64,000 nt of DNA from Actinomycetospora succinea (GTDB taxonomy: Bacteria > Actinomycetota > Actinomycetes > Mycobacteriales > Pseudonocardiaceae). The position numbers and the translations under genes were made by a program. Location of the stretch: contig NZ_SNYO01000011.1 of NCBI RefSeq assembly GCF_004363095.1, positions 1-64,000 of the forward strand, read 5' to 3'. Positions 647 to 23,003 of the stretch are shown here, piece after piece (position 1 is the stretch's first letter; every line of letters begins with the position of its first letter). A model generated the notes under the pieces. The model ran no database searches and had not been told where the DNA came from. It worked only from the letters and a program-made list of their open reading frames with translations.

Positions 647-3409
647 GTGTCCGATCGCCCACCCACCACGCCGCAGGTGATCGGCCGTGCCCGCGAGCGG
701 GAGCAGCTCGCCGCGGCGGTGGACCCGGCGCGTCGCGACGGCACGGTCACCGTCCTGCGCGGCGAGCCGGGCGCCGGCAAGACGACGCTGCTCGACGAGG
801 TCGCCGCGGCATCGCTGCGCCTGGTGCTGCGCACGGCCGGCGTGGAGGGCGAGGCGGTCCTGCCGTTCGCGGCGGTCGCGGACCTGCTGCTGCCGATCCT
901 CAAGCACGCCGAGGAGCTGCCCGACGTCCAGCGCGAGGCGCTCGAGATCGCCCTCGCCCTGCGCGCCGGCGACGTCGGGAGCCCGCTCGCCGTCTCCGCG
1001 GCCACCCTCGGGGTGCTCGCGGCCGCCGCCGACGTGCGTCCCCTGCTCCTGATCGTCGACGACTTCCCCTGGATCGATCCCCCCTCCCAGCAGGTGCTGA
1101 TGTTCGTCGCCCGGCGTCTCGCGTCGGAACGGATCGCGCTGCTCCTCGGGGTGCGCGACGAGGTGCCGGTCGACCCCGCGGTCTGGCGCCTGCCGACGAT
1201 CGCGCTCGGCCCGCTCTCCGCCGACGAGAGCCGCGAGCTCGTCCGCACGCTGCCGGTCCGCACGTCGCCCGCGGTGCTCGAGACGATCGTCGAGCGCTGC
1301 GGCGGCAATCCCCTCGCCGTCGTCGAGACGGCCCGGGTCGCCGGCCCCGACCTCCTCGACGCCGCCGCGACCCTGCCGCCGGGCTCGACGCTCGAGCGCG
1401 CCTGGTCCGCGGCCATCGACGGGCTCCCGACGACCACCCGCTCGGCGCTGGCGGTGCTCGCGCTGAGCCACTCGACCCGCCGCGACGAGCTCGAGCCCGT
1501 CCTCGCCGACCTCGGCCTCGGCGCCGACGACCTGCTCCCCGCCGAGCGCCGCCGGCTCGTCGCGCGCGACGACGAGCACATGAGCCTGCGCCACGACCTC
1601 CTGCGCCCCCTCGTCACCGCGCGCACGGCCCGTGACCTGCGTCGACGGGTCCTCCAGGGACTCGCACACCACGCCCCGCGCGACGTCGCCGTCTGGTATC
1701 TCGCCGAGTCCACCGAGGCGCCCGACGACGAGGTCGCCGAGCGTCTCGTCGAGGCCGCCGTCACCGCCCGGCGACGCTCCGCCCTCCAGGCCGCCGCGCG
1801 CGCCTGGGCCCGCGCCGCCGACTTCACCGCCGACCCGGCCACCCGCGCCGACCGCCTCCTCACCGCCGCCACCGACGCCGCCATCGCCGGCAGCTCTACC
1901 CTCGCCGCGACCTGGTGCGAGGAGGCGCTGGCCCTGCGCCACGACCCGACCTTCGCCGCCGACGTCGAGCTCGTCCGGACCCGCGCGCTCACCTGGCTCG
2001 ACCCGGCGCGCGCCATCGACGGTGCCGTGCGCGCCGCCGACGCGGTGCTCCCCCTGGACCCCGCGCGCGCCGGTCGGCTCTACGTCGAGGCCGCGGCGCC
2101 GCTGACGATGACCGGGCGGCTGCGCGAGACCCAGGACGTCGCCGACCGCGCCCGCGACGCCGACGGGCGGACCCTCCCGGCGCTCGCCGGGCTCGGCCAC
2201 GCCTACGCGCTGACCGGGCGCGTGGACGAGGCGCAGCCGCTGCTCGACGAGCTCGTCGCCCGCGCCGGCGACGCGAACCCGCTGTGGGATGCCCCGCCGC
2301 TGGTCATCGGAGGCCAGGCCGCCTGCTTCCTCGAGCGGTTCGACGACGCCCGCCGTCTCCTCGCCCCGGTGACGGCGAGCGCGCGGCAGGTCGGCGTGCC
2401 GCTCGTGCTCGCGTTCGCGCTGGGCGCCCACGCGGAGGTCGACTGGTGGGCCGGGCGGTGGCACGCCGCCTACGCCGACGCGAGCGAGGGCGTCGCGTGG
2501 GCCGACGAGCTGGGCCAGGCCGGCAGCCGCGCGTTCGGGGAGACGCTGCTCGCCCGGCTCGAAGGGGTGCGCGGCGACGCGGCGTCGTGCCGGGCCCGCG
2601 CGGAGGCGGCGCTGGCGGCGGCCGGGCCGCTGGGCATCGAGAGCATCCGGGTCTACGCGGCCGCGGCGCTCGGCGCGGGCGCGCTCGCCGCCGGCGAGCC
2701 GGTGACCGCCGCCGCCCACCTCGAGCGCGCCCGCGCGGCGTCCGAGCAGATGGGCACCGCGTGCATGGGCTCGGTGCCGTTCGCCGGCGACCTCGTCGAC
2801 GCGACGGTCCGGGCCGGCGACCGGACCGCGGCCGTGTCGGCGGTGGCGTGGGTGGGCCGGCTCGCCGAGCGCACGGGGTCGGCGTACGCGGAGGCGATGG
2901 CCGCGCGCGGGAAGGGTCTGCTCGCCGACGACCACGACGACGCCGAGCACTGGTTCGCCGTCGCCCACGCCGCGCACGCGCGATTGGCCGCGCCGTACGA
3001 GCGCGCGCGGACCGTCCTCGCCCACGCCGAGGTCCGCCGGCGGTGGCGGCGCCCCGGCACTGCACGGGCGTTGCTGCTCGACGCCGAGGCGACGTTCTCC
3101 GGGGTGGGCGCGCGCCCGTGGGTCGAGCGCGCCCGCCACGAGCTCGCCGCGACCGGGCACCGGGCGTCCGGCGAGCCTGCCGACGAGGACCCGGTCTCGC
3201 TCGAGGTGCTGACGCCGCAGGAGTTCCAGATCGCCCGGGGCATCGCCGACGGCCAGAGCAACGTCGAGGTCGCGGCCGCGCTGTTCGTCTCACGCAAGAC
3301 GGTGGAGGCGCACCTGACCCGCATCTACCGCAAGCTCGGCGTCCGTTCGCGCACCGAGCTCGCTACCGAATTCACGCGCCGTCGCCGACTCCCCGAGGGA
3401 ACTCCCTAG
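647..3409 (+). CDS. LuxR-family transcriptional regulator of the LAL (large ATP-binding) type
   Basis: A 920-residue cytoplasmic regulator. The N-terminus is a STAND/AAA ATPase: Walker A GEPGAGKTT near residues 40-50, and a Walker B-like LLLIVDDFPWIDP near 140. A long helical TPR-like middle follows (about 300-840). The C-terminus is a LuxR-type helix-turn-helix, LTPQEFQIARGIADGQS then VEVAAALFVSRKTVEAHLTR (about 855-915). LAL proteins couple ligand sensing and ATP binding to DNA binding, often controlling polysaccharide use or secondary metabolism (family knowledge). The GTG start at 647 is supported by GGAGGAGGTG nine bases upstream. It lies 3 kb from the NodB-GT2/chitosanase genes and could regulate them, but nothing in the sequence proves the target. 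Confidence 0.9.
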   Translation: MSDRPPTTPQVIGRAREREQLAAAVDPARRDGTVTVLRGEPGAGKTTLLDEVAAASLRLVLRTAGVEGEAVLPFAAVADLLLPILKHAEELPDVQREALEIALALRAGDVGSPLAVSAATLGVLAAAADVRPLLLIVDDFPWIDPPSQQVLMFVARRLASERIALLLGVRDEVPVDPAVWRLPTIALGPLSADESRELVRTLPVRTSPAVLETIVERCGGNPLAVVETARVAGPDLLDAAATLPPGSTLERAWSAAIDGLPTTTRSALAVLALSHSTRRDELEPVLADLGLGADDLLPAERRRLVARDDEHMSLRHDLLRPLVTARTARDLRRRVLQGLAHHAPRDVAVWYLAESTEAPDDEVAERLVEAAVTARRRSALQAAARAWARAADFTADPATRADRLLTAATDAAIAGSSTLAATWCEEALALRHDPTFAADVELVRTRALTWLDPARAIDGAVRAADAVLPLDPARAGRLYVEAAAPLTMTGRLRETQDVADRARDADGRTLPALAGLGHAYALTGRVDEAQPLLDELVARAGDANPLWDAPPLVIGGQAACFLERFDDARRLLAPVTASARQVGVPLVLAFALGAHAEVDWWAGRWHAAYADASEGVAWADELGQAGSRAFGETLLARLEGVRGDAASCRARAEAALAAAGPLGIESIRVYAAAALGAGALAAGEPVTAAAHLERARAASEQMGTACMGSVPFAGDLVDATVRAGDRTAAVSAVAWVGRLAERTGSAYAEAMAARGKGLLADDHDDAEHWFAVAHAAHARLAAPYERARTVLAHAEVRRRWRRPGTARALLLDAEATFSGVGARPWVERARHELAATGHRASGEPADEDPVSLEVLTPQEFQIARGIADGQSNVEVAAALFVSRKTVEAHLTRIYRKLGVRSRTELATEFTRRRRLPEGTP

Positions 3410-3436
3410 TACCGCCGCGCCGTGTCACCCGACAGG

Positions 3437-3457
3437 CTGATCGCCGAACACGATCAG
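3437..3457. promoter_or_regulatory. 21-bp perfect inverted repeat, candidate operator
   Basis: CTGATCG (3437-3443), a 7-base spacer, then CGATCAG (3451-3457). It sits between the stop of the LAL regulator and the ribosome binding site of the VOC gene, 22 bases before its ATG. The symmetry and position suit a dimeric repressor or activator. It is too short and AT-rich for a terminator. Confidence 0.45.
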
Positions 3458-3479
3458 TACGCACAGCGCGGGAGGTGGG

Positions 3480-3884
3480 ATGACGGCGACGGCGGTCGAG
3501 AGGCCCGGCTTCACGGGGTTCCACCACTTCGCGTCGACGGTCAGCGACATCTCGCGCAGTGCCGCCTGGTATGAGCGCGTGCTGGGGCTGACCCCGGCGT
3601 CCACGCTCTGCCCGGACGACGGCACCACCGACGGCGTCCTGCTGAGCGACCCCGAGTCCGGGATCGCCATCCGCCTGCACGGCGCCGGCGGCGCCGAGCC
3701 GCGCGGCCACGCGGCGCTGTCGGTGTCCAGCCGCGCGCAGCTCGACACCTGGGCGGGCTGGTTCGACGGGCTCGGCGTGCTCCACAGCGGGGTCGTCGAC
3801 GTCGGCGGCCCGGAGCCGTACGCGTACCTCGTGTTCCGTGATCCGGACGATCTCCCGCTCGTGCTGGTGCACGTCGTGGAGTGA
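3480..3884 (+). CDS. VOC-superfamily (glyoxalase/bleomycin-resistance-like) protein
   Basis: A 134-residue protein covering the two-module βαβββ VOC fold once. The first metal-ligand-type His is in FHHFASTVSD (about residue 15), a central GHAALSVS carries another, and the end FRDPDDLPLVLVH matches the usual F-x-DP-x-G-N-x-x-E-L motif but lacks the final Glu. Metal binding may therefore be altered or absent. The ATG at 3480 follows GGGAGGTGG directly. VOC proteins of this size are dioxygenases, glyoxalases, isomerases or drug-binding proteins; the substrate cannot be told. A palindrome just upstream suggests dedicated regulation. Confidence 0.85.
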   Translation: MTATAVERPGFTGFHHFASTVSDISRSAAWYERVLGLTPASTLCPDDGTTDGVLLSDPESGIAIRLHGAGGAEPRGHAALSVSSRAQLDTWAGWFDGLGVLHSGVVDVGGPEPYAYLVFRDPDDLPLVLVHVVE

Positions 3885-5940: not shown

Positions 5941-6254
5941 AGCTGCCCCCCAGCGCCCGACCGGAATCCAGGAAACGGGCGATACTCGCACTGCGCACCT
6001 TAGAGGGTCGACAGCCTCAGTCATAGGTGCTTCGAGACAGTGGACGAGCCACCTGTTCATCGCGAACGCTTCGACGAGATCCTCAGGCCGTCGACGATCG
6101 GGCCGCACTACGCACTTCCGCTGCTCATTGCTTCTCGGTAGCGTGCGATTCACACGATCGGGTGGTGATAGGTACACGGCGCGGGGGGCCACACCCGTTC
6201 ACGAGACCGACCGCGATACAGCGCGGTCGGGGCATCGGTGTCCGGGGGAAAGCC
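5941..6254. promoter_or_regulatory. divergent intergenic region before the sugar-transferase-like gene
   Basis: Roughly 310 bases between divergent GTG starts at 5940 and 6255. Overlapping frames exist in several phases but none has a ribosome binding site or recognisable protein. The region carries the G6 and G5 ribosome-binding tracts of the two flanking genes and presumably two promoters. No convincing -35/-10 pair is visible. Confidence 0.35.
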
Positions 6255-7442
6255 GTGGCGGATGGATGGATCCGGCGCGGGGTGGGCGAGCGCGCGCTCC
6301 GTGTCCGTGGTGTCGGTGGCACGCATTGGAGAGGTCGGTCGCTGTCCGTGGGGGCCGCCGATCCGCACAGACACGTCGTGACCGTCCTCCTCGTCACTGC
6401 CGATCTTGTGGCTACGGCGGTGGCGTTCTCCTGGACGGGGCAGCTCCGCTCGGTCGCCTGGGCCTTGGCCGGCGTCCTCGCCGTCCGCGTCGCTTCCGGG
6501 CTATACCGGACCCGGCTCCGCTTTTCTTACGCCCACGACCTGGGTCGCGCGTTCGCCTCCGTCGCGGCAGGGTTCGCGGTCGCCGTCGCCGGGGCGACCG
6601 TTCTCGGCACGCCGCACACCCGCGAGATCGCCATCGGCATGCTCGTGTTCCTGACCGTCAGCGAGATCGGACGCGGCTTAGTTCTCACCCTGGTCCGGCA
6701 CGCGAGACGGGACCTGGGGCACGGCCTCCGGACCGTTGTCGTCGGCTCCCGGGACGTCGGCCTCGACGTGTTCTCGACGATGCGGTCACACCCCGAACTC
6801 GGACTGCTCCCGGTGGCCGTCGCCGACCCCGCTCGGTCCGGCGAAGGGCGCACGGCCGCAGTGGCGGCCCGAGGACCGCTCGCCGACGTCATCGAGGAGC
6901 ACCATGCGCAGGCCGTCCTGCTGGCCCAGGACGACGCGTGCTCCGTGCCGCTCGCGACCTCGGCGACGATCGCCGACGGTCTCGGGTGCTCGGTGTTGTA
7001 CCTGCGGCGCGCCTCCGGGTCCCGTGACGGCTCCGACGTCGAGCGTCTTCGCGCTCTCCCTGTCGGTCGGCACAGGGACGGCGCCGCGCAGTCACCGAGT
7101 CGGCGAGCCACGCGCGCGTTCGACCTGATCGTGTCCACCGGGGCCCTCGTGTTCCTCCTGCCGCTCATCGCGATCGTGGCGCTCGCCGTGCGCCTCGAAT
7201 GCGGGAGCCCCGTCATCGCCCGCCGTTGGCGCGTCGGTCGCGCCGGCGAACCGTTCCGGCTCCTGACGTTCACGAGCACCGTCGACGACGGAACCATCGG
7301 GCCGGTCGGGCGCGTGATCCGCGGGACGTGGTTGGACGAGCTACCTCAGCTGTGGAACGTGCTGTGCGGGGACATGAGCCTCCTCGGGCCGCGCCCCGGA
7401 CGCTCGGCCGATGCGCAGGCATCGTCCGCCGATCGCGGTTGA
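6255..7442 (+). CDS. degenerate polyprenyl glycosyl-1-phosphate transferase (lacks C-terminus)
   Basis: A 395-residue relative of the initiating sugar-phosphate transferases that load undecaprenyl phosphate (compare 50252-51673). The N-terminal membrane helices, the Rossmann-like middle (RTVVVGSRDVGLDVF) and the entry helix of the catalytic domain (RAFDLIVSTGALVFLLPLIA) are recognisable. The Asp-Glu dyad survives in WLDELPQLWNVL, followed by GDMSLLGPRP. Then the frame ends, so the usual 60-80 residues after GPRP, with the PGLTG-AQVSG segment, are missing. The KFRS motif reads TFTST, and the loop before the dyad is shortened. The GTG at 6255 has GGGGGAAA upstream. Out-of-frame residues at 7411-7470 (RRHRPPIAVEAGL) may be a relic of the lost end. 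Probably inactive. Confidence 0.65.
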   Translation: MADGWIRRGVGERALRVRGVGGTHWRGRSLSVGAADPHRHVVTVLLVTADLVATAVAFSWTGQLRSVAWALAGVLAVRVASGLYRTRLRFSYAHDLGRAFASVAAGFAVAVAGATVLGTPHTREIAIGMLVFLTVSEIGRGLVLTLVRHARRDLGHGLRTVVVGSRDVGLDVFSTMRSHPELGLLPVAVADPARSGEGRTAAVAARGPLADVIEEHHAQAVLLAQDDACSVPLATSATIADGLGCSVLYLRRASGSRDGSDVERLRALPVGRHRDGAAQSPSRRATRAFDLIVSTGALVFLLPLIAIVALAVRLECGSPVIARRWRVGRAGEPFRLLTFTSTVDDGTIGPVGRVIRGTWLDELPQLWNVLCGDMSLLGPRPGRSADAQASSADRG

Positions 7443-7548
7443 GGCCGGACTGGTCCGTACGGGTCGACCCGATCGGGTGTACCGGGCGACGGCCGCCGCG
7501 AGCATGGTCATATCGTCGTCCGGTGACGCCGACGGCCTGGGAGCGACG

Positions 7549-8376
7549 ATGAACCGGCGCTCCTTCCTCGCTCTCGGCGCCGCGGTGGCCGGATGGACCG
7601 CGCTCGGCGCCTGCAGCGCGCCGTCGATCGCCGCAGACCCCCGCGCTCCCGGCCTTCTCGACCCGACCCGCAAGCACACCGCCGAAGCCGTCATCAGCAC
7701 GTTCGAGAACTCGACGACCGAGCTCCCCTACGCCGCGGCGCAGCGGCTCGGCGACGGCCGCGGGATCACCGCGGGCCGTGCCGGGTTCACCAGCGGCACC
7801 CACGACCTCCTGCTCGTCGTCCGCCGCTACGAGCAGATCGCCGGCCCCCAGAACCCTCTGCACCGCTACCTCCAGCCCCTGACCCGGATCGACAGCCAGG
7901 TCGCCGACGGCGGTGACGGCGACAGCACCAAGGGCCTCGACGGCTTCGAGGACGCCTGGCGCCGGGCGTCGCAGACCGACCCGCGGCTCAACCAGGCCCA
8001 GGACGCCGTCTACGACGACCTCTACTTCCGCCCCGCGATGGACCGCGCCCGAGCTATAGGCATCACGAACGCCCTCGGCCAGCTCGCCCTGCTCGACACC
8101 GGCATCCAGCACGGCATCGGCTCGGGCCCCGACGACCTCCCGGCGCTGATTACCGAGACCGGCCCGCCCGCCGGCGACGACCCCGCCTGGTTGCGTCGCT
8201 TCCTCGAGGTCCGCCGCGAGCACCTCGAGCACCCGGCCTACGAGGAGACCACGGACGTCTGGCGCGAGTCGCTCCCCCGCGTCGACACCCTCGAGAGCTT
8301 CATCGACCAGCGTCAGTTCGACCTCGCGACTCCGCTGTCGTGGACCTTCGCCGGCTCCCGCTTCAACGTCGGCTGA
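7549..8376 (+). CDS. GH46 endo-chitosanase, Tat-exported lipoprotein
   Basis: A 275-residue chitosanase that should hydrolyse β-1,4 bonds in glucosamine-rich chitosan. The signal peptide has twin arginines (MNRRSFLALGAAVAG) and a lipobox ending at Cys22 (ALGAC), predicting a Tat-exported, membrane-anchored enzyme outside the cell. The mature part matches GH46: KHTAEAVISTFENST carries the general acid Glu53, and RLGDGRGITAGRAGFTSGT the second catalytic carboxylate Asp69, equivalent to Glu22 and Asp40 of Streptomyces N174 chitosanase. LNQAQDAVYDDLYFRPA and the C-terminal DLATPLSWTFAGSRF also fit the family. ATG 7549 is chosen because the signal peptide begins there. It lies 106 bases after the degenerate transferase and 0.85 kb from the convergent deacetylase-synthase gene, which suggests it trims that polymer. 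Confidence 0.88.
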   Translation: MNRRSFLALGAAVAGWTALGACSAPSIAADPRAPGLLDPTRKHTAEAVISTFENSTTELPYAAAQRLGDGRGITAGRAGFTSGTHDLLLVVRRYEQIAGPQNPLHRYLQPLTRIDSQVADGGDGDSTKGLDGFEDAWRRASQTDPRLNQAQDAVYDDLYFRPAMDRARAIGITNALGQLALLDTGIQHGIGSGPDDLPALITETGPPAGDDPAWLRRFLEVRREHLEHPAYEETTDVWRESLPRVDTLESFIDQRQFDLATPLSWTFAGSRFNVG

Positions 8377-8516
8377 GCGCCCGGAGATCCAAAGTAGCCA
8401 TCTGGACCGGTACGAACCCTGGCCATCGCGAATGGCGGATCCGTCGCCGACAGGTGGTCACACCATCTGGTGGACCGCTCCTGCGCGCAGCACCATCCGC
8501 TCTACCGTCGTGCGCT

Positions 8517-9191
8517 GTGGGGGCGACGCCGGAATGGCTGATCAAGGTCGCGAAGGGCTCCGAGGAGCATCGTGACTGGTGCACGCGGGCTCTGACGACG
8601 TACTTCGACGAGCCGGCTCCCGGCAGACCGAACTTCTCCGGCGCCTCCTTCGACGTCCTCGGCGAAAACCCGCCTGACCGGATCGTCCCTGATGACCTCG
8701 TGGCGGTCTCGCTGCTCAGCGTCAGGGTCCCGAAGCATGCGGCGCTCCGGGTCCTCGGTCCCGACGCAGATCGGATCTCCGGCCTACTCGAAGGCATCCC
8801 GGCCGATCGAGATCTCCACGACGCCACCCCGGGTGCGATCGCGGACGGGGAATGTGCCGATCAGCTCTGGTGGGTTCTGGCCGAACGCCGTCCGGGCCGC
8901 CCGCGCGCCGACGTCGACGGCTTCGGCGACGTGACGATCTCGAAGATCCTCGCCCGCAAGCGGCCCCGCCTGCTGCCGGTGTGGGACAGCGTCGTCGGCA
9001 AGCAGCTCGGGTTGCGCCGTCCGCGCGATCACTGGACCTGCGTCCAAGAGCTCCTCCACCGCGACCCTGCCTACGTCGAGGTCCTGCGCGCCGCGCATCA
9101 AGCCGCCGGCCTGTCGGACCGCGTCAGCGTCCTGCGAACCCTGGACGTCCTCCTGTGGATGGACGGAACCGGTCACTGCCCCGCCCCGTGA
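8517..9191 (+). CDS. DUF6308-like protein of unknown function
   Basis: A soluble protein of 224 residues from the GTG at 8517 (VGATPEWLIKVAKG). The body has DRIVPDDLVAVSLLSVRVP, a helical middle, DVDGFGDVTISKILARKRPRLLPVWDSVV and a C-terminal YVEVLRAAHQ-type helix ending LRTLDVLLWM. This pattern, with ARKRPRLLPVWDSVV, resembles actinobacterial DUF6308-type proteins, which have no established function. The start is uncertain: no good ribosome binding site is visible at 8517, and the frame is open back to 8340. Nothing obvious links it to the polysaccharide genes beside it. Confidence 0.6.
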   Translation: MGATPEWLIKVAKGSEEHRDWCTRALTTYFDEPAPGRPNFSGASFDVLGENPPDRIVPDDLVAVSLLSVRVPKHAALRVLGPDADRISGLLEGIPADRDLHDATPGAIADGECADQLWWVLAERRPGRPRADVDGFGDVTISKILARKRPRLLPVWDSVVGKQLGLRRPRDHWTCVQELLHRDPAYVEVLRAAHQAAGLSDRVSVLRTLDVLLWMDGTGHCPAP

Positions 9192-9220
9192 CGCAGCTGC
9201 GAGGGTCGTCGGCTAACGCT

Positions 9221-9238
9221 GCTCAGCGTCGGCTGAGC
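9221..9238. terminator. hairpin between convergent genes
   Basis: GCTCAGC (9221-9227), loop GTCG, then GCTGAGC (9232-9238): a perfect 7-bp stem between the end of the DUF6308-like gene and the end of the deacetylase-synthase, overlapping the latter's stop codon. No U-tract follows on either strand, so it would be a weak or factor-dependent bidirectional terminator. Confidence 0.4.
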
Positions 9239-11445
9239 ACCACCAGCCGCGTCGAGGCCCGTGACGGCGGCGCCTCGGGCGCGTCGGGCGGCGTCGGGAA
9301 CACCGCCGGTTCCTGCAAGTGCACCTCCAGCCCACCCACGCGCCGCAGCTTCTGCCACCCCAGCCGGATGCCGCCGACCGCGGTGACCATCGAGCGGATC
9401 AGCACCGCGTACATGAGCTGCCGGTAGACGATCTGCTGCAGCGGCAGGAGCCACAGCACCCCGATCGGCTCGCGCTCCAGCCGGAACGCGATCACCGCGG
9501 CGACGAGCTGGACCGCCTGCACCGTCGACCACGCCACCAGCGTCGTCACGGGGTCGAGGAACAGCAGTCCGTAGACCAGGAAGATGTCGACCAGCGGCGC
9601 CAGCAACGGCAGCAGCACCTGGAACACCGCGAGGTGCGCCAGCCCCAGCCGCCCGAAGCGGCCCGACGCCCCCGACTCGAGCACCGCGCGGCGGTGCTTC
9701 CACATCGACTGCATCGTCCCGTAGCTCCAGCGGTACCGCTGGCGCCACAGCTGCGGCAGCGTCGCCGGCGCCTCGGTCCAGGCCCGCGCCGACTCCTCGT
9801 AGACCACGCGCCAGCCGCTGCGGCAGATCGCCATGGTGAGGTCGGTGTCCTCGGCCAGGGTGTCGTCGCTGACCCCGCCGACCGCGAGCAGCACCCGCCG
9901 CCGGAACGCCCCGATCGCGCCCGGGACCGTCGGCATGCAGCGCAGGACGTCGTACACGCGGCGGTCGACGTTGAAGCCCATGACGTACTCGATGTGCTGC
10001 CAGCGCGCGATCAGACCCCGCCGGCTCGCGACCTTGGCGTTGCCCGCGACGGCGCCCACCGACGGGTCCGCGAACGGCTGCACCAGCCGTCCGACGGTCG
10101 ACGGCTCGAACACCGTGTCCCCGTCGATCATGACGATGAGCTCGTGGCGGGCGTGCGCGATGCCGGTGTTCAGCGCCGCGGGCTTGCCGCCGTTGACCTG
10201 CCGCACCACTCGCACGCGCGGCAGCCGCAGCGCCTCGACGATGTCGGCGGTGCCGTCGGTGCTGCCGTCGTCGACGACGATCACCTCGACGGGGTGCTCG
10301 CTGGCCACCAGCGAGCGCACGGTGGCCGAGATGTTCTCCTTCTCGTTGTAGGCCGGGACGATCACCGAGACCGGCTCGGTCACCGGCGGGCCCCACGAGA
10401 ACCCGGGGCGGTGCCGCTGCCGGTGGTGCCGGACGGCGACGACGAGCATCAGCACCAGCCGCAGCACGACGAGCACGCCGACCACCAGCAGCAACCAGGT
10501 CAGGACGTCGACGACGACCCCGGCCACCGCGACCAGGCCGATCGCGACGCTGCCGGCGAGGTGGTCGGCCGCCGCGACCGGACGGTTGTCGGCGGGCAGC
10601 CCGACCGCGACCTCCGGGGTCGTGAACCGGTACCCCTGCGCCTGCAGCTCGGGGATCAGGCGGTCGAGCGCGGCAACGGTCTGGGACCGGTCGCCCCCGG
10701 CGTCGTGCAGCAGGACCACGCCGCCCGACCCGTTCGCCGGCTGGGCGTTGCGGACGATCGCGTCGACGCCCGGGCGCTCCCAGTCGCGGCTGTCGGTGTC
10801 GGAGAGGACGGTGACGTACCCGTCGCGGCCGGCGGTGGTGAACGAGCGCAGCGCGTCGCCGGTGACCGCGTCCGCGGTCGACGAGTACGGCGGGCGCAGC
10901 AGGTAGCTCGACTCCCCCAGCGCTCCCTCGATCACCAGCTGGGTCTCGGTGAGCTCTCGGTCGATGCGGTAGTCCGACGCCTGCGAGAGGTCGGGGTGGG
11001 TGAACGTGTGCAGCCCGACCTCCGAGCCCGCCGCGCGGATCTCGCGCAGCAGCTCGGGGTTGCGGGCGGCGTTCGACCCGACCACGAAGAACGTCGCGGG
11101 CACCTGGTGGCGGCGCAGCACCTCGAGGACCTGCGGGGTCCAGGTCGGGTCCGGACCGTCGTCGAAGGTCAGCGCGATCGTCTTCGCCGGCATCCGCGCG
11201 CTCGCCGGCGCGGCGCCGCGGGCGTCGATCACGGGACCGCCGTCGGTGATCGCCGGCGGCACCCCGTCGGTGGCGTCGGGCGAGGTGTCCTGCGCGACGG
11301 CGTCGACCCCGACCTGCGAGCGCGCGAGCCCGTCCACGACGAGCAGGCAGCTGAACATCGTCAGCGCGACCACGACGAACAGCACCCCGGCGCGCGGCAG
11401 CAGACGGCGCCGGCGCCTCGGGGTCCGGTGGCGGGGCGCGGTCAC
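9223..11445 (-). CDS. bifunctional NodB-type polysaccharide deacetylase / processive GT2 synthase
   Basis: A 740-residue membrane protein that should both polymerise and deacetylate an amino-sugar chain. After one transmembrane helix (about 20-38) comes an extracellular NodB domain (88-285) with TFDDGPD (93-99), HTFTH (146-150), RPPYSS (184-189), a DSRDW region (218-222) and LLHDAG (245-250), all five metal/catalytic motifs. Two helices (about 300-338) lead to a cytoplasmic GT2 domain with VDDGSTDG (391-398), DGD (441-443), AEDTD (531-535) and QRYRW (569-573), the D,D,D,QxxRW signature of chitin, hyaluronan and PNAG synthases. Four more helices close it. GTG 11445 overlaps the stop of the upstream His-rich gene (GTGA). 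The order resembles deacetylase-synthase fusions linked to streptomycete PNAG, but a GH46 chitosanase nearby argues for β-1,4 glucosamine. Confidence 0.9.
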   Translation of the reverse strand: MTAPRHRTPRRRRRLLPRAGVLFVVVALTMFSCLLVVDGLARSQVGVDAVAQDTSPDATDGVPPAITDGGPVIDARGAAPASARMPAKTIALTFDDGPDPTWTPQVLEVLRRHQVPATFFVVGSNAARNPELLREIRAAGSEVGLHTFTHPDLSQASDYRIDRELTETQLVIEGALGESSYLLRPPYSSTADAVTGDALRSFTTAGRDGYVTVLSDTDSRDWERPGVDAIVRNAQPANGSGGVVLLHDAGGDRSQTVAALDRLIPELQAQGYRFTTPEVAVGLPADNRPVAAADHLAGSVAIGLVAVAGVVVDVLTWLLLVVGVLVVLRLVLMLVVAVRHHRQRHRPGFSWGPPVTEPVSVIVPAYNEKENISATVRSLVASEHPVEVIVVDDGSTDGTADIVEALRLPRVRVVRQVNGGKPAALNTGIAHARHELIVMIDGDTVFEPSTVGRLVQPFADPSVGAVAGNAKVASRRGLIARWQHIEYVMGFNVDRRVYDVLRCMPTVPGAIGAFRRRVLLAVGGVSDDTLAEDTDLTMAICRSGWRVVYEESARAWTEAPATLPQLWRQRYRWSYGTMQSMWKHRRAVLESGASGRFGRLGLAHLAVFQVLLPLLAPLVDIFLVYGLLFLDPVTTLVAWSTVQAVQLVAAVIAFRLEREPIGVLWLLPLQQIVYRQLMYAVLIRSMVTAVGGIRLGWQKLRRVGGLEVHLQEPAVFPTPPDAPEAPPSRASTRLVVLSRR

Positions 11446-12053
11446 GCCTGGCTCACCGTGTTCAGGACGTCGGCGGTCGCCGCGTCGGTGGTCGTGTGCC
11501 CGTGCGCGTGGCTCGACGCCCCGTGCGTGTGGTGGTGGTGCTTCGTCTCCTGGTGGTGGCGCTGCTGGTGGCGCGGGGTTTCGCGGGTGGTGACGGTCGT
11601 GGTCGTGGTGTGCGTGACGGCGGTGTGGACGATCGCCTTCGGCTCGCGGACCACCCGCAGCGGCACCAGCCGGGCCGGCTGCTTGCGGGGTGCGGCGACG
11701 TGGCGCTGGTGGGTGCGCTCGTGCCGGTCGGCGGTCCGCTCGTGGCGTGCCGACGAGGCGTGGTGCGTCGCCGCCGTGGCGACGGGCGACGCCGCGGGCA
11801 CGACCTCGGGCTCGTCGTCGTCGGCGTCGTCCCCCTCATCGTCCGGCGTCGCCGGGCTCGGCGTGAGCGTCGCGCCCACCGGCTGCAGCGACACCGTCTG
11901 CGTGCCCACCGTCAGCCCGAACGCAGCGAGGTAGGCCGCGGCGGCCGAGGCCCCGAGGTACCCCAGCACCGACACCCCGCGCCGCCGACGCCCGCTGGCG
12001 TCGACGAACACCGGCGTGTGGTCGCCCGGTTCCTGTGACTCCGTCGTGCTCAT
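11442..12053 (-). CDS. membrane protein with His-rich C-terminal tail
   Basis: A 203-residue protein with a hydrophilic start, one transmembrane helix (VLGYLGASAAAAYLAAFGLTV, about 30-52), an acidic Pro/Asp linker (DDEGDDADDDEPEVV), then a long Arg/Thr/His-rich tail. The last 60 residues carry dense His clusters such as HHQETKHHHHTHG and SSHAHGH. ATG 12053 is chosen because a G6 tract (12061-12066 on the complement) lies seven bases upstream. Its stop overlaps the start of the deacetylase-synthase by GTGA, so the two should be translated together. The tail would lie outside the membrane and could bind Zn or other divalent metal for the metal-dependent deacetylase; this is inference. No family recognised. 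Confidence 0.7.
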   Translation of the reverse strand: MSTTESQEPGDHTPVFVDASGRRRRGVSVLGYLGASAAAAYLAAFGLTVGTQTVSLQPVGATLTPSPATPDDEGDDADDDEPEVVPAASPVATAATHHASSARHERTADRHERTHQRHVAAPRKQPARLVPLRVVREPKAIVHTAVTHTTTTTVTTRETPRHQQRHHQETKHHHHTHGASSHAHGHTTTDAATADVLNTVSQA

Positions 12054-15024: not shown

Positions 15025-15972
15025 TTGATGGTTCTGCGACTAGCTACGACTTCCCCCGGGAGACTTGCCGTGACGTCAGCGATGGAGAACCCCCGCCTTT
15101 CTCAGCCGGCGAAGGAATCCGTCTTCTGGTCGTCCGCCCGCGACGAGAAGAGCGTCGACTTAGAGCGTCCGACCGACTCTGACGTTTCCACCGAGGCGCT
15201 TGTAGCTGGAGGGATTCGCCTCACCCCCATGACGGCCGGGCAGATCGTCAACGAGATCGTCCTTCGCGCCATGACGGGGAACCGTTTACTGCTCGCCAAC
15301 CACAACCTCCACAGCCTCTACCTCTGGCAGCGCAACGCCGACGTGAGGAAGTTCTACGAACTTGCCGAGTCGGTCGTCATTGATGGAGCGCCGATCCTCT
15401 GGTTGGCGCAGAACCGGCGAGACAACCTCGGAAGCCAGCACCGTGTCGGGAGCACCGACTGGCTGGTCCGACTTCTCCCGGTCGCTGAGGAGGCCGGCCT
15501 GAAGATCGCATTCCTTGGAGGCGCTCCGGGCGTCGGTGAGCGGGCGGCGATCGAGATCATGGCGCGTCATCCGCGTCTTGAGATCAGCGTACGGGATGGG
15601 TACTTCGATACCGCTAGCGGATCGGTCGAGAATGAGGCCGTTCTTTCGTGGCTCGACGAGGTCAAGCCGGATATTCTCCTCGTCGGCATGGGCATGCCGC
15701 TTCAGGAGGCGTGGATTGCCCAGAACTACTCCCGGCTCTCTGCGACGGTGGTCTGCACCGTCGGCGGCTGCATGGACTACGTGGCCGGTAAGCAGGAGCT
15801 CGCCCCGCGGTGGATGGGGAGGCTCGGGGTCGAATGGGCGTTCCGACTGACTTGCGACCCTGCACGCCTGTGGCGCCGGTACATGCTAGAGCCACCGGTC
15901 GTCGCCGCCGCCCTCGCGCGACGTCGCGCTCGGCGGACGCGGGCTTCTTGGTCGACTGCAATCGCTGGCTGA
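15025..15972 (+). CDS. WecG/TagA/CpsF-family glycosyltransferase (GT26)
   Basis: A 315-residue cytoplasmic or membrane-associated transferase that adds a second sugar, typically N-acetylmannosamine(uronate), to an undecaprenyl-linked sugar. Family signatures: NRLLLANHNLHSLYLWQRN, FYELAESVVIDGAPILWLA (the conserved D-G in the acceptor site), IAFLGGAPGVGERAA, KPDILLVGMGMPLQEAW and CTVGGCMDYVAGKQELAP, ending with the RLGVEWAFRL region. Usual family length is about 240-260, so about 65 N-terminal residues are extra. ATG 15025 has AAGG upstream; ATG 15082 is an alternative. It converges on the decayed methyltransferase and lies beside cluster I, whose initiating transferase would supply its acceptor. 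Confidence 0.9.
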   Translation: MMVLRLATTSPGRLAVTSAMENPRLSQPAKESVFWSSARDEKSVDLERPTDSDVSTEALVAGGIRLTPMTAGQIVNEIVLRAMTGNRLLLANHNLHSLYLWQRNADVRKFYELAESVVIDGAPILWLAQNRRDNLGSQHRVGSTDWLVRLLPVAEEAGLKIAFLGGAPGVGERAAIEIMARHPRLEISVRDGYFDTASGSVENEAVLSWLDEVKPDILLVGMGMPLQEAWIAQNYSRLSATVVCTVGGCMDYVAGKQELAPRWMGRLGVEWAFRLTCDPARLWRRYMLEPPVVAAALARRRARRTRASWSTAIAG

Positions 15973-16038
15973 GTCACTGATCTGTCGGTCAACGATTCGT
16001 CGTCGCGCCGAGTATGATCAAGAATCTCGCGCGGCAGG

Positions 16039-16820
16039 TCAGCCACCGGCCATCGTCGCGTGGGTGTCGTAACCCTGGCACCGGGCGTCGGCAGATCCGA
16101 GATACCACCCGTCCGAAGGACGAATCCTCCGGGCACGCGCTGCAGGAACGAATGATCACCGAGCAGCTTCTAGCTACTGGGACTCGGCGATGCTCGCGCA
16201 ACGTCTGCTCCCTCGTCACTTAGTCAGCGATGTCCTCGCCGAATACGCCCGAGAAGTGCTCCTCGAAAACGAGGTTCGATCCAACGCCTGTCAACGTCGA
16301 TCGCCTGGTGCATGTGGCTTGCCGATGAGCGCGCTCTCGCTGGCGCACAGCGAATCGGTCATCCCCGAGCCTAGCCGGCAGGTCGATCTCATCGACAAGC
16401 CTCGACCAGTCGACCTTCTCAGACTCGAAGCTCACGAACACAGGCCGTTCGGCGAACGGAAGTGGCGACTCCCGCCAGCCAGGGTCGGTCGGCACCTTCG
16501 GTATCGATTTCATGTGGCATCGGGGCACTCTGTCCCGCGGGTGGCGCTGAGCTCTACCCATCGCTCGTCAGTAGTCCCCCACACCGACTTAGTCGGATTG
16601 CGGTTAACGACAACCCCCTGGACCGGGTTCTCGGTGATAGCACCCCAGACAAGGGTGAGGAGGCCTGAGCCAACGGCAGACCTGAACCGGTTGGACAGAC
16701 CCTCCATGAAGTCGCAGTTGACCTCGAACGCAACGACCCGGTAACCCTTCCTCAGGTAGTACGCGGTGTCCTCACTAAGATGGCACCCCACGTCGAAACG
16801 AGATCGCGCGCCTGACGCAT
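16039..16820 (-). pseudogene. decayed FkbM-family methyltransferase
   Basis: Pieces of one SAM-dependent methyltransferase appear in order in different frames. A start (MRQARDLV from ATG 16820) runs into FDVGCHLSEDTAYYLRKGYR only after a one-base shift in an A3 run (16796-16798). The frame continues through NPTKSVWGTTDERW and stops near 16510. The next piece has FVSFESEKVDWSRLVDEIDL and RLGDDRFAV and ends with FGEDIAD then TAA at 16220. Past that stop come LREHRR-type residues and, in a third frame, GYDTHA, ending near 16039. The segment between GTTDERW and VSFESEK, which should hold the YLKIDIEG region, is mostly missing. It follows the GT4 gene by 20 bases, so it was the last gene of the minus-strand operon. 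Non-functional. Confidence 0.8.
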
Positions 16821-16840
16821 GCCCCGGACCAGATCAGCGA

Positions 16841-17965
16841 TCATCGATTACCCTCCCCCACTTCCAGCCGCTTACCCCTGAGGGCGATCTCGTACTGGTC
16901 GACGACCCGCTGGGTCATGATTTCCAAGCTGCAATTCTCGACGAAGTACTTCCTCGCCGCTGGACCTAGCGCTGCGAGGTCGCCGGTCGCATAAACGGCC
17001 GCAACCTTTGCAGCGATCTCGCTGGCGGACAGACTCGGGTCGTACAACACTCCCGTCTCGCCATCGATTATCACGTCGCGGCAGCTGCCCACGTCGGGCG
17101 TGACCACAGCCCGTCCGACGCCCATGCCCTCGAGGATGGTGAGAGGAAGCCCCTCGCGCTTACTGGTTAGCAGGACCACATCCGCAGCGGCGATCTCCGA
17201 CGCGACCTTGGTCGACACACCAGGGAAAGACACGTGGTGCTCGGGTCCTGCTGATCGCACGAACTCTTCGACGTCGGCCCGCAGAGGGCCGTCACCGAAC
17301 CACCGAGCCGAGCAGGCAATGCCCAACCGCCGAAGCGCGGCCACGACATCGACGAAGCGGAACGGATCTTTCTCCTCTGACAGCCGGCCGATGCCCACGA
17401 TCCGAAGTTCTGGTTCGCCGACTCCGGAGCGTGCACGCTCACGTTCGCCAGGATCGACGACAGCGTTCGTGACCACACTGATGCGGTCGGGCCGCCGTCC
17501 GAACCCTTCCTCCAGCATCGCGCGCACTTGCGAGCCGCAAGCGATGAGCCGATCTCCACGAAACGACGCCATGCGAGCGACCGGCGTCGGCTCGAAAAGA
17601 CTGTGAACGTGCTCAACGACAGGCACTCCCGAACCCACCAAAGCGAGCCGGGCGAGTATCGACAGCGCACGTTGGTGCACGTGCACCACTTGCCACGAGC
17701 CGTCTCGAACTGCTCGCCTGATCGCGCTGACCCACCGAAGGTTGCCCACCAATCCGCCGCGAGGCTCTAGCTCGAACCGGCGCACGCCATCCGGGACGTC
17801 CCCCCACAGGGCTCCACCGAGTTCGGCCATGACGCCTACCCGATGGCCCCTGCTGTGGAGGTCGACAGCAAGGTTGACGACGACGCGTTCCACACCGCCG
17901 ACCACCAGATCGTCGTTGATCTGCAGCACGCCCGAACGCGGCGCCGAACCGGAAGCTGAGCTCAT
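16841..17965 (-). CDS. GT4-type (GT-B) glycosyltransferase
   Basis: A 374-residue retaining glycosyltransferase of the GT-B fold, probably adding one sugar to the lipid-linked repeat unit on the inner face of the membrane. The N-terminal domain begins VLQINDDLVVGGVERVVVNL (glycine-rich acceptor-side loop) and has VVHVHQRALSILARLAL. The donor domain shows LRIVGIGRLSEEKDPFRFVD, then VVLLTSKREGLPLTILEGMG, whose E-x(7)-E carries the nucleotide-sugar contacts. Donor and linkage cannot be read from sequence. Its start overlaps the Wzy stop by four bases. Confidence 0.88.
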   Translation of the reverse strand: MSSASGSAPRSGVLQINDDLVVGGVERVVVNLAVDLHSRGHRVGVMAELGGALWGDVPDGVRRFELEPRGGLVGNLRWVSAIRRAVRDGSWQVVHVHQRALSILARLALVGSGVPVVEHVHSLFEPTPVARMASFRGDRLIACGSQVRAMLEEGFGRRPDRISVVTNAVVDPGERERARSGVGEPELRIVGIGRLSEEKDPFRFVDVVAALRRLGIACSARWFGDGPLRADVEEFVRSAGPEHHVSFPGVSTKVASEIAAADVVLLTSKREGLPLTILEGMGVGRAVVTPDVGSCRDVIIDGETGVLYDPSLSASEIAAKVAAVYATGDLAALGPAARKYFVENCSLEIMTQRVVDQYEIALRGKRLEVGEGNR

Positions 17966-19209
17966 GAGGCGGTCCCCACGAGCCGTCGAGACGGCCGCAC
18001 GCTGCCCAGGTCCGACACCAACTGGCGCTCAGTCGCGAAGAGGAGCGCCGCCCCAAGCACAAAGAATCCAAAGAAGTTGGTTGACGGCGACTCCGTGAGA
18101 TTCACGAGCACCAACGCCATCGCCACTGCGACACTCCATGCCGAGAGCTGGATGCGATCTCGAACGAAGGCCCGGACGGCCAGGACGATCGCGCCGAGCA
18201 ACGCAATCACCAGCAACACGAGTCCAACCAACCCAAGCTGCAGCATCATGTCGAGATACCCGTCATGCGAGTGGTACATCTTGAATCCTGCTGCACGCCA
18301 CATGCGTTGCGTATCAGGCAAGCCCTCTCTCCACGCAGCATTCCAGCCGAGCCCCAGCAGTGGGCTTCGCTCGATTTGTTCGAGAACCGCCGGCCAGACG
18401 TCCGTCCGACCCGTGAGCGTCGAATCGCGGCCGAGGCCGCTGACGATCTCAGCGAACGAGAAGATTGCCATGTAGACGAGTGTCAAGATCGACGCCAACG
18501 AAAGAGTTCCGATGATGACGCGTGAGAACCCTGTGAACCGACGGACCCACCGAAGAACAACGATGACGAGAGCCGTTCCCAACGCCGCCACTAACACCGT
18601 TTGCGATTGAGCAGCGAGAAGACACGCCACGCTGAGGACCGTGTCCATCACGGTCACCCGCCGAGAGCGAATCTTCCGCAACGCTACGAAGGTCGCCAAC
18701 GCGATCAACGCCATGAATGCCAGCAAGTTTCGATGGACAAACAAGCCTTTGAGCGCCCCGGTCTGATAGTTCTCATCGACCAGACCGACAGACGGAACTA
18801 CGATCGCAGTGAGAATGGACACCAAGAGGACGACCCTGAAAGCGACGGCAACAACTTCAAGAAACTCTTGCTGAGACATCACCCGGCGCACCAAAGTCGT
18901 CGCAGTAATGAGTAGCACGATCGCTGTAGCAGCTGGTAATGTCGAGAAAGGTGCGACCGACCATATTGTGCTCAAGATACAGGTCCCACCGAGAGTGGCC
19001 AGAACGGCTGCCCGGAGACCGGCCTCGTAACGTGGGGCAGACATAAGCGCGAGTAACGAAACGGTCGCTGCGGCGAAGATGATGGCGATGTCCGCCCCCT
19101 CGTAGGGCGCGACACTGGCCAGACACACCATTACGATGATGAGAAGATGAAGAAATCTGCGACTCGGTATCGAGCCTGCCGTATCCTTTGCACTGGCGAG
19201 AGGCTTCAT
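17962..19209 (-). CDS. O-antigen polymerase/ligase-like membrane protein (Wzy)
   Basis: A 415-residue polytopic protein with about 11-12 hydrophobic segments and one large extracytoplasmic loop late in the sequence (RTDVWPAVLEQIERSPLLGL, then KMYHSHDGYLDMMLQLGLVG). The loop plus the H-S-H motif is the Wzy_C/O-antigen ligase pattern. It should join lipid-linked repeat units into a polymer outside the membrane. The start overlaps the flippase stop (ATGA) and its own stop overlaps the GT4 start. Polymerase rather than ligase is inferred from its place among repeat-unit genes. Confidence 0.85.
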   Translation of the reverse strand: MKPLASAKDTAGSIPSRRFLHLLIIVMVCLASVAPYEGADIAIIFAAATVSLLALMSAPRYEAGLRAAVLATLGGTCILSTIWSVAPFSTLPAATAIVLLITATTLVRRVMSQQEFLEVVAVAFRVVLLVSILTAIVVPSVGLVDENYQTGALKGLFVHRNLLAFMALIALATFVALRKIRSRRVTVMDTVLSVACLLAAQSQTVLVAALGTALVIVVLRWVRRFTGFSRVIIGTLSLASILTLVYMAIFSFAEIVSGLGRDSTLTGRTDVWPAVLEQIERSPLLGLGWNAAWREGLPDTQRMWRAAGFKMYHSHDGYLDMMLQLGLVGLVLLVIALLGAIVLAVRAFVRDRIQLSAWSVAVAMALVLVNLTESPSTNFFGFFVLGAALLFATERQLVSDLGSVRPSRRLVGTAS

Positions 19210-20459
19210 GAAGCCAGCCTTGACGACTCACGCGCGAGCGACTGACGGGCCCGAACCGCGAGCGGTATCGAAAAGAACGCCGCCCCGAACGCAAGGCCTG
19301 CAGCACCGCCAGGAGCACCCCAGACGGCCGCGCCCAGCAGCACTGCGGCGAGGCTAATAGGACTTGCGATCAGTTTCCATCGTACCTCGAACCCTAGCAT
19401 TCCTGCAGCCCGGAGGTACGGGCCGAATGACGCTCCGATCAGTGACCCGAGCATCGCGGCGCCGGATATAGGCACCAAAGCCCACGCAGCGGGCCATGAA
19501 TCACCGATCACGCCCGACATGAACTCGACGGGGACAGCCAGGACGAGCGCGGTGAGAACGAGAGTTGCGAGAGCGAGAATCGCGCAGACCTTGATGCCGA
19601 GGGCATACGCAGAGCGCTGCTGCCCATCTCGAACCCGAACCACCATAGCGGGCTGAACAAGCGCGATACTCCCCATGACCAGGACTTGGACCGGGGCGAG
19701 CGGCAACTGCGCAAGACGGACTAAGCCGAAGGCCGCGGGTCCCGCGACGGCCGCGACCACGAGTCCACCACCCATGCTCACCGATTGCGTCAGCGCGAAA
19801 TCGATCGAGCTCTTCGAACCGATGGCTCGGGCGTCTTTCCACCACGCCGTAGCCCCGCGGACGTGCGGCCACGCGTGACTTCGCCACATCGCTGTGAGCG
19901 CGCCGAGACCGGCGAAGAACGCCCATACCACGATGAGGGACAGCAGCGAAACAGCGTCGAAAGCGACGAGAAATGCGCACCCGGCCCACACTCCGCCGGT
20001 CCAGATCGCCGTGCTGATGAGCGCAAGGCTCTCGTCAGCGTTGGCGTAACACAGCCAACGAAGCGCGTCCTGCACCAAGATGGGAATCAGGAGCAGTCCG
20101 AGCGCGGCGAGACCTCTGGGGAGATCGAGGAACACCGACGATGCCATGCCGGCCAAGGCAAGTAGCACCGAACCCGCTACGGCGAGGACCAGGACTGCAC
20201 CGAGAGCCTGCCGGGTGGCCGGGCTGTGTCGGCGCATGTCCGATGTCGAGTGCTGCAGCGTATAACCATCGATGAGGGCGGCCTTGGAGAGGCCAGCGGC
20301 GATCAGGCCGATGAACATGGCCGTAGAAAGAACGCCGAACTGCGGGAGGTCGAGGGTGCGGGCGCCGATCCAGGACAACGAGAGATTGCCGAGACTCGAC
20401 AATCCTGCGTCCGCGATCCCGATCGTCGCTCGGCGGGACCCTCGCCTGCCGATCGTCAT
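19206..20459 (-). CDS. Wzx-type polysaccharide flippase
   Basis: A 417-residue protein with about 12 transmembrane segments and short loops, of the MOP/polysaccharide-exporter superfamily. It begins TIGIADAGLSSLGNLSLSWI and has a central FALTQSVSMGGGLVVAAVAG and a PLAPVQVLVMGSIALVQPAM region typical of Wzx. Role: moving undecaprenyl-linked repeat units across the membrane. ATG 20459 is chosen because it overlaps the stop of the upstream GT2 gene (ATGA); a longer start at 20525 would overlap that gene by 70 bases. Sequence in Wzx proteins is poorly conserved, so topology and context carry the call. Confidence 0.82.
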   Translation of the reverse strand: MTIGRRGSRRATIGIADAGLSSLGNLSLSWIGARTLDLPQFGVLSTAMFIGLIAAGLSKAALIDGYTLQHSTSDMRRHSPATRQALGAVLVLAVAGSVLLALAGMASSVFLDLPRGLAALGLLLIPILVQDALRWLCYANADESLALISTAIWTGGVWAGCAFLVAFDAVSLLSLIVVWAFFAGLGALTAMWRSHAWPHVRGATAWWKDARAIGSKSSIDFALTQSVSMGGGLVVAAVAGPAAFGLVRLAQLPLAPVQVLVMGSIALVQPAMVVRVRDGQQRSAYALGIKVCAILALATLVLTALVLAVPVEFMSGVIGDSWPAAWALVPISGAAMLGSLIGASFGPYLRAAGMLGFEVRWKLIASPISLAAVLLGAAVWGAPGGAAGLAFGAAFFSIPLAVRARQSLARESSRLAS

Positions 20460-22905: not shown

Positions 22906-23003
22906 GGTGGCCCCCCGACCGTGCTACGTCCGTTATCTGGTCGTCACCGCAGGGACGGTACCGCACCCACTCGGGCGACCGACTGGCCGTCACTCGTCGG
23001 TGG

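Follow-up and report, generated by a model that had tools for sequence, protein, structure and literature searches.

The analysed stretch of DNA (the window) comprises the first 64,000 nucleotides of contig NZ_SNYO01000011.1 of Actinomycetospora succinea. It carries a gene for a single-chain protein joining a NodB-like deacetylase domain of family CE4 to a glycosyltransferase domain of family GT2 (the fusion), and a gene for a putative chitosanase of glycoside hydrolase family GH46 (Table 1). The two genes are convergent and therefore do not form one operon in the window; their stop codons are 846 bp apart. An earlier note, made from the sequence without database searches, had proposed that the two make up a chitosan system, on the grounds that one chain holds complete NodB and GT2 motifs and that a lipoprotein chitosanase exported by the twin-arginine translocation (Tat) pathway, with Glu53 and Asp69 in place, lies 0.85 kb away. 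Both descriptions are borne out by the domain and motif assignments reported below.

Table 1 Features of the window discussed in the text.
Feature	Position	Strand	Basis
NodB-GT2 fusion, MatB-type synthase-deacetylase	9223-11445	-	740 residues, GTG start, motifs and Pfam domains
GH46 chitosanase-family Tat lipoprotein	7549-8376	+	PF01374, motifs, catalytic residues
MatA-like partner gene (by position)	11442-12053	-	N-terminal motif PVFVDASGRRRR, low-complexity His-rich tail
DUF6308 gene between GH46 and fusion	8517-9191	+	PF19827, 1.7e-51 on the longer frame 8340-9191
Exopolysaccharide sugar-transferase gene	6027-7442	+	PF02397, match limited to positions 2-115 of 179

The fusion matches PF01522 (1.1e-35) and PF13641 (8.1e-37). 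Its NodB/CE4 domain spans approximately residues 84-278 and carries the motifs TFDDGPD (residue 93), HTFTHPD (146), RPPYSS (184) and LHDAGG (246). The GT2 domain, at approximately residues 358-576, carries DDGSTD (392), DGDT (441), AEDTD (531) and QRYRW (569). Since a simple hydropathy scan places helices near residues 19-37, 290-336 and 597-654, the NodB domain is predicted to lie outside the cell and the GT2 domain inside, the order along the chain being an N-terminal membrane helix, the outward NodB domain, membrane helices, the cytoplasmic GT2 domain and C-terminal membrane helices. MatB of Streptomyces is described in PMC5972031 as having an extracellular CE4 domain and an intracellular GT2 domain. 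The ratio of nonsynonymous to synonymous substitution rates (dN/dS) for the fusion is 0.18 in the one pair compared.

Read from the ATG at 7549, the GH46 protein is 275 residues long and features a twin arginine at residues 3-4, a lipobox cysteine (Cys22) and the catalytic candidates Glu53 and Asp69. It matches PF01374 at 5.2e-49 (167 bits, against a cut-off of 27) and solved chitosanases at 2.5e-48 for the best match. When mapped by motif, residues of the chitosanase CsnN174 are kept as Glu53, Asp69, Arg71, Thr74 and Asp86; the roles of Glu22, Asp40, Arg42 and Thr45 of CsnN174 are as given in PMC3848431, and that of Asp57 is taken only from the title of a cited reference. We aligned ten GH46 proteins linked to fusions, nine from Actinomycetospora and one from Amycolatopsis acididurans. 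Glu53, Asp69 and Arg71 are invariant, the twin arginine is present in all ten, and nine have a lipobox pattern, the Actinomycetospora lutea protein featuring a less typical PAC. GH46 dN/dS values range from 0.12 to 0.40 across five pairs. The protein belongs to the GH46 chitosanase family and is predicted to hydrolyse β-1,4 chitosan.

GH46 genes are linked to the fusion in related genomes, as the proposal of a common system would have it. Fusions at least 69% identical to that of the window were called type A, and neighbours were counted up to a distance of 7 kb. Type-A fusions occur at 12 places in 10 of 18 Actinomycetospora genomes; not counted among the 12 is a type-A fragment (71%, residues 2-157) found where a contig breaks off in a genome that is 59% complete (G011). 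GH46 is found in 12 of the 18 genomes. For all nine GH46 copies of the window lineage (149-176 bits, seven genomes), a type-A fusion is found no more than 7 kb away, and the other five copies in the genus (281-300 bits) are all found in genomes devoid of type A. Three type-A genomes (G004, G006 and G010) carry no GH46. Among 297 genomes of the bacterial family, 115 fusion places were found in 92 genomes, and 11 of them have a GH46 gene within 7 kb: the nine of the genus, one in Amycolatopsis acididurans (G263) and one in G154. By chance, 0.07 pairs would be expected in the genus and 0.11 outside it, versus the nine and two observed. The G154 pair is included in the count, yet it is probably fortuitous; the GH46 gene lies 4.3 kb from the fusion and its product lacks a Tat motif. 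Gene order varies. For instance, fusion, GH18 (see below) and GH46 genes are consecutive on one strand in Amycolatopsis acididurans, where the GH18 and GH46 frames as called are one base apart, and Actinomycetospora callitridis features the order GH18, MatA-like gene, fusion, GH46. The linkage is real; within the genus it is largely inherited, and the independent events number about two.

Two broader searches were also made. A search of named genome contigs, in which some loci are cut by contig ends, was seeded with the ten linked proteins and returned 68 GH46 loci, eight of them with a fusion within the fetched stretch. A fusion lies beside all seven loci whose GH46 is at least 59% identical to that of the window (Actinomycetospora lutea, A. 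callitridis, A. chibensis, A. lemnae, A. straminea and A. sp. NBRC 106375), versus one of the 61 loci at 38% identity or less, namely Amycolatopsis acididurans, itself a seed. Because the search was seeded and the six species were already in the genus survey, it adds only the absence of further GH46 genes of this kind. In a phylum-wide search of 396 genomes, fusions (E ≤1e-120) were found in 11 genomes and GH46 in 11 (10 over the cut-off), and only the window had the two paired.

A second recurrent neighbour of the fusion emerged when the genes around the first 30 fetched fusions were mapped. The protein has no Pfam match, including to GH18. A profile built from it matches the solved structures of Exochitinase 1 (9buf, 1.8e-77) and of a chitinase that we take to be from Pyrococcus furiosus (2dsk, 2e-61), and Asp156 and Glu158 (numbering of the first row) are invariant in the five proteins aligned. 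By these matches, the neighbour is a GH18-type enzyme and a predicted chitinase. Its distribution was assessed on 108 fusion rows: 95 of 96 fetched family loci (L188 yielded no fusion under the criteria used), the broken L106 copy, 10 phylum-sample loci drawn from 13 further fusion places, and two plasmid loci. The remaining 19 of the 115 family places were compared with GH46 by coordinates alone, and none is near. Eight of the 10 phylum-sample loci come from a single genus, g53, taken to be Streptomyces; L193 belongs to another family of the Streptomyces order. As counted on fetched loci, GH18 lies within 7 kb of 23 of the 108 fusion rows; in 21 of them it shares the strand of the fusion, and in 18 of these 21 it is upstream by 0.5-2.2 kb. 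The number of GH18 copies ranges from zero to four in the 26 genomes searched. No GH18 gene is found near the window locus, the single match in that genome being on another contig.

The synthase itself is of a known kind. The window fusion is 56-58% identical to fusions in all six named Streptomyces genomes searched, over query residues 3-728 or so at most; the six were chosen from the Streptomyces loci among the GH46 search results. One of the six Streptomyces fusions carries an internal TGA. Whole-chain identity identifies the window fusion as a MatB-type enzyme. The contrast drawn in the earlier note with known actinomycete deacetylase-synthase loci, which are linked to poly-β-1,6-N-acetylglucosamine (PNAG), consequently fails for the synthase. 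NCBIfam scores of the fusion are below cut-off for PgaC_IcaA (TIGR03937, 185.9 versus 422.3 bits), NodC (TIGR04242, 73 versus 550 bits) and NodB (151.9 versus 240 bits); as controls, E. coli PgaC and a Rhizobium NodC score 648 and 90 bits with the PgaC model. The CE4 domain is 36-39% identical to NodB over about 200 residues (E 9e-40 to 3e-44). In contrast, E. coli K-12 PgaB matches it in a single 40-residue stretch at 4e-5.

Two GT2 trees were built, neither of which contained a hyaluronan synthase or a chitin synthase. In the first (115 rows, rooted on NodC, with support from the Shimodaira-Hasegawa-like approximate likelihood-ratio test only), the window group falls inside a larger clade (support 95) with the fusions of g53, which is probably Streptomyces, and the second (core) fusion of Actinomycetospora falls outside this clade. 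Since the tree was rooted on NodC, closeness to PgaC is partly a root effect. In the second tree (23 rows, outgroup BcsA), in which PgaC, NodC and BcsA are all on long branches, 14 of 16 fusions are sister to PgaC (support 87/83), the two outside being a Sulfitobacter fusion and one from the phylum of the window (G433). All 16 fusions group with PgaC at 75/86, and the alternative grouping of all 16 with NodC is not rejected by the approximately unbiased test (p 0.35). The window GT2 domain thus appears nearer to PgaC than to NodC, with weak support and on a separate lineage, and the tree leaves the linkage unfixed; it was dropped as a linkage test. The earlier note had held that its proposal would fail if the GT2 domain fell firmly among PgaC/MatB-type β-1,6 synthases and the GH46 linkage was not conserved in related genomes. 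The domain largely does sit among MatB-type enzymes, PgaC is a weakly supported sister, and the linkage is retained.

Taken together, these data lead us to favour, at a confidence somewhat short of probable, a locus with which the cell produces an amino-sugar polymer, at least partly chitosan-like, and itself trims this product. The GT2 domain would polymerise N-acetylglucosamine from UDP-N-acetylglucosamine inside the cell, and the growing chain would be pushed outward through the membrane helices of the fusion. The NodB domain on the outer side would strip part of the acetyl groups, and the Tat-exported, membrane-anchored GH46 enzyme would cut deacetylated stretches; in sister loci, the GH18 chitinase-type enzyme would cut acetylated ones. 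Trimming may set the length of the chain or free it, as does the PgaB hydrolase domain in Gram-negative PNAG systems. A chitosan-like polymer is suggested for this sub-lineage because GH46 and GH18 belong to families acting on β-1,4 chains. More tentatively still, the MatB-type fusion may make a β-1,4 or mixed-linkage chain in Actinomycetospora and Amycolatopsis acididurans, cut by the cognate GH46 and GH18. Likeness to β-1,4 enzymes is seen in the hydrolases and, as a weaker pointer, in the CE4 domain, whereas the synthase resembles β-1,6 synthases. Such a mismatch has a precedent, as Citrobacter BfpC, which is 67% identical to PgaC, is required for a polymer reportedly degraded by chitinase and chitosanase (PMC6414854).

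A number of observations weigh against a chitosan-like product trimmed by its own locus. The reported product of Streptomyces MatAB is β-1,6 PNAG: the MatAB matrix is stained by antibody F598 and was removed by dispersin B and periodate but not by chitinases (PMC5972031). As the window fusion is MatB-type, PNAG would be predicted from homology alone. The window GT2 domain is closer to PgaC of E. coli K-12 (BLAST 36%, 160 bits, 1.5e-48) than to its best NodC match (31%, 83 bits, 6e-21), and features EDxD and QRxRW as PgaC does, NodC having GEDR and QQLRW. Little about linkage can be read from the resemblance of the CE4 domain to NodB, because the CE4 domain of MatB, a PNAG maker, is also nearest to deacetylases of 1,4-linked chains according to PMC5972031. 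The fusion and GH46 genes of the window converge and are separated by the DUF6308 gene, a layout from which no co-transcription can be inferred. Neither hydrolase is found within 7 kb in 76 of the 108 fusion rows; two of the 10 type-A species (G006 and G010) have neither at the locus, and G004 has GH18 only. The first Asp of the GH18 DxDxE motif is kept in four of the five aligned proteins and is replaced by Val in one. GH46 and GT2 distance matrices agree (Mantel r 0.90 for 10 loci and 0.70 for the nine genus loci, with none of 20,000 permutations as high), a sign of co-inheritance that counts in favour of the proposed locus; yet such agreement is expected of neighbours that share descent and does not demonstrate joint function.

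Alternatively, the synthase may produce an adhesive matrix and the hydrolases may be aimed at foreign chitin or chitosan, for instance that of fungi, contact with a fungal wall requiring both. GH46 and GH18 are families that degrade external chitosan and chitin, the linked GH46 proteins look cell-anchored, and the many fusions with no hydrolase nearby would be accounted for. We consider this explanation unlikely, if the most serious of the competing ones: the tight packing of GH18 and GH46 behind the fusion fits a product-specific enzyme better, the window-type GH46 lineage is confined to fusion loci in the genus, and some GH46 copies elsewhere in the bacterial family lack the Tat and lipobox patterns.

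Slightly less likely again is a polymer that is ordinary β-1,6 PNAG, with the GH46 of the locus (and GH18) adapted to cut it when partly deacetylated, thereby taking the place that the PgaB hydrolase domain has in Gram-negatives. The whole-chain identity to Streptomyces fusions, the affinity of the GT2 domain to PgaC and the conserved GH46 linkage would all be expected. Moreover, a survey of biofilm operons (PMC7112194) reports this domain from Gram-negative pga operons only; a different trimming enzyme would thus be required in Gram-positive loci. Against this stand the GH46 sequences: all the mapped CsnN174 residues are kept in the window protein, the Amycolatopsis acididurans protein scores 307.9 bits, like ordinary family members, and no signs of retargeting were noticed in GH46, no test aimed at retargeting having been made. 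The last alternative, that GH46 occupies, by chance or hitch-hiking, a variable site open to other genes as well and that its position beside the fusion is meaningless, may draw on the species-specific intervals, the G154 pair and the few events to which the nine genus pairs trace, and is very unlikely, given the excess over chance expectation and the occurrence of both convergent and same-strand forms in two genera.

The locus may be compared with four known systems. Rhizobial NodB and NodC likewise combine a NodB-like deacetylase with a GT2 enzyme acting on N-acetylglucosamine chains; in contrast to the window fusion, which scores far below the NodC model cut-off, NodC is a separate protein. 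The NodC product is a short β-1,4 oligomer. PgaABCD and IcaADBC, which make poly-β-1,6-N-acetylglucosamine, share a processive GT2 enzyme and a CE4 deacetylase, and in PgaB a hydrolase is coupled to the deacetylase. They differ in that the window GT2 domain does not reach the PgaC_IcaA cut-off and branches separately, the window CE4 domain is NodB-like and unlike that of E. coli PgaB, and the hydrolases of the window type are separate GH46 and GH18 proteins. Streptomyces MatAB (matA SCO2963, matB SCO2962) is alike in having an extracellular CE4 and an intracellular GT2 domain in one chain and a partner gene without known domains. Unlike the window locus, the 10 phylum-sample loci and one named Streptomyces plasmid locus feature no GH46 in the fetched stretch. 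Two g53 loci have GH18 on the opposite strand, and all eight have an Acyl_transf_3 domain or gene beside the fusion, which neither the type-A loci nor this plasmid locus has. Finally, the Citrobacter bfpABCD chitin/chitosan-like bioflocculant also involves a PgaC-type synthase and a polymer reportedly degraded by chitinase and chitosanase. However, bfpABCD is a Gram-negative pga-type operon, and no GH46 gene is mentioned in the available text of PMC6414854, in which the likeness to chitosan rests on composition, infrared spectra and enzymes.

MatB-type fusions are already known, and the linkage to GH46 and GH18 appears to be the new element; a search of openly licensed papers turned up no GH46-MatB pairing and no GH46 or GH18 linked to a MatB-type fusion. 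Should the chain be PNAG, GH46 would act on β-1,6 glucosamine, which the family is not known to do. It would also provide a trimming enzyme for Gram-positive PNAG, the operons of which are described without the PgaB hydrolase domain (PMC7112194). Should the chain be chitosan-like, GH46 would acquire a function in processing what the cell itself makes. According to a 2015 review of GH46 (PMC4663542), chitosan occurs naturally only in organisms that are producers of chitin as well, and a bacterial locus making, deacetylating and cutting a chitosan-like chain would alter that picture. A dedicated system would further imply that the linkage formed by the MatB/PgaC branch of GT2 enzymes has changed and that bacteria purposely make chitosan. 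This soil actinobacterium and several related species, with a cell-anchored GH46 beside the synthase, may thus coat themselves with a chitosan-like polymer that they also trim.

Variants of the fusion were also noted in Actinomycetospora. A second, broken type-A fusion with a piece of the partner gene is present in Actinomycetospora sp. NBRC 106375 (L106:10261-12683; G013:C8, approximately 294.4-296.1 kb). The core fusion of the genus (G000:C4:246942-249086, L101) is followed, within a single called frame of 1280 residues, by an Acyl_transf_3 domain. The NodB-GT2-acyltransferase arrangement rests on Pfam for L101 only, similar open frames having been recognised by similarity in other core copies of the genus; it would unite three Ica-type functions in one protein. 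At G000:C13:11995-14029 (L290), matches to the NodB and GT2 parts occur as adjacent separate genes, with similar pairs in several congeneric genomes.

The partner gene had been described in the earlier note as encoding a His-rich membrane protein translationally coupled to the synthase. Its stop overlaps the start of the fusion by 4 bp (GTGA); for the window copy, the membrane assignment is weakly supported, as a simple hydropathy scan revealed no stretch over 1.6. The window protein has 20 His among 203 residues, a feature that is not conserved. The start VFVDxSGRRRR recurs upstream of many fusions and the tail varies, being rich in Ser, Thr, Pro and Gly in the relatives read; a metal-binding role for a His-rich partner was rejected on these grounds, together with a dN/dS of 0.64 for the partner gene between the window and Actinomycetospora lutea. 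Among the 108 fusion rows, the MatA-like motif gene almost never occurs together with the acyltransferase domain, L111 alone having both.

The interval between GH46 and fusion varies by species, featuring the DUF6308 gene in the window, two large genes in Actinomycetospora lutea and others elsewhere. No DUF6308 counterpart was found among the first 30 fetched loci, and the gene is a window-specific insertion outside the module. The variable insertion spot, occupied in the window by this gene, is found at the corresponding position in L089, L090, L094 and L095. On the other side of GH46, the match of the sugar-transferase gene ends 68 residues short of the end of the 482-residue Actinomycetospora lutea counterpart. 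A related, second sugar transferase belongs to a further exopolysaccharide cluster at positions 15025-24485 of the window, along with a WecG/TagA-type transferase, a GT4-like transferase and a Wzc-like tyrosine-kinase protein. A large ATPase-LuxR-regulator-like gene and a small glyoxalase/VOC-like gene, both named by the look of their sequences, are found at positions 677-3884, and this pair flanks the GH46 side in six Actinomycetospora loci (the window, L089, L091 and L093-L095).

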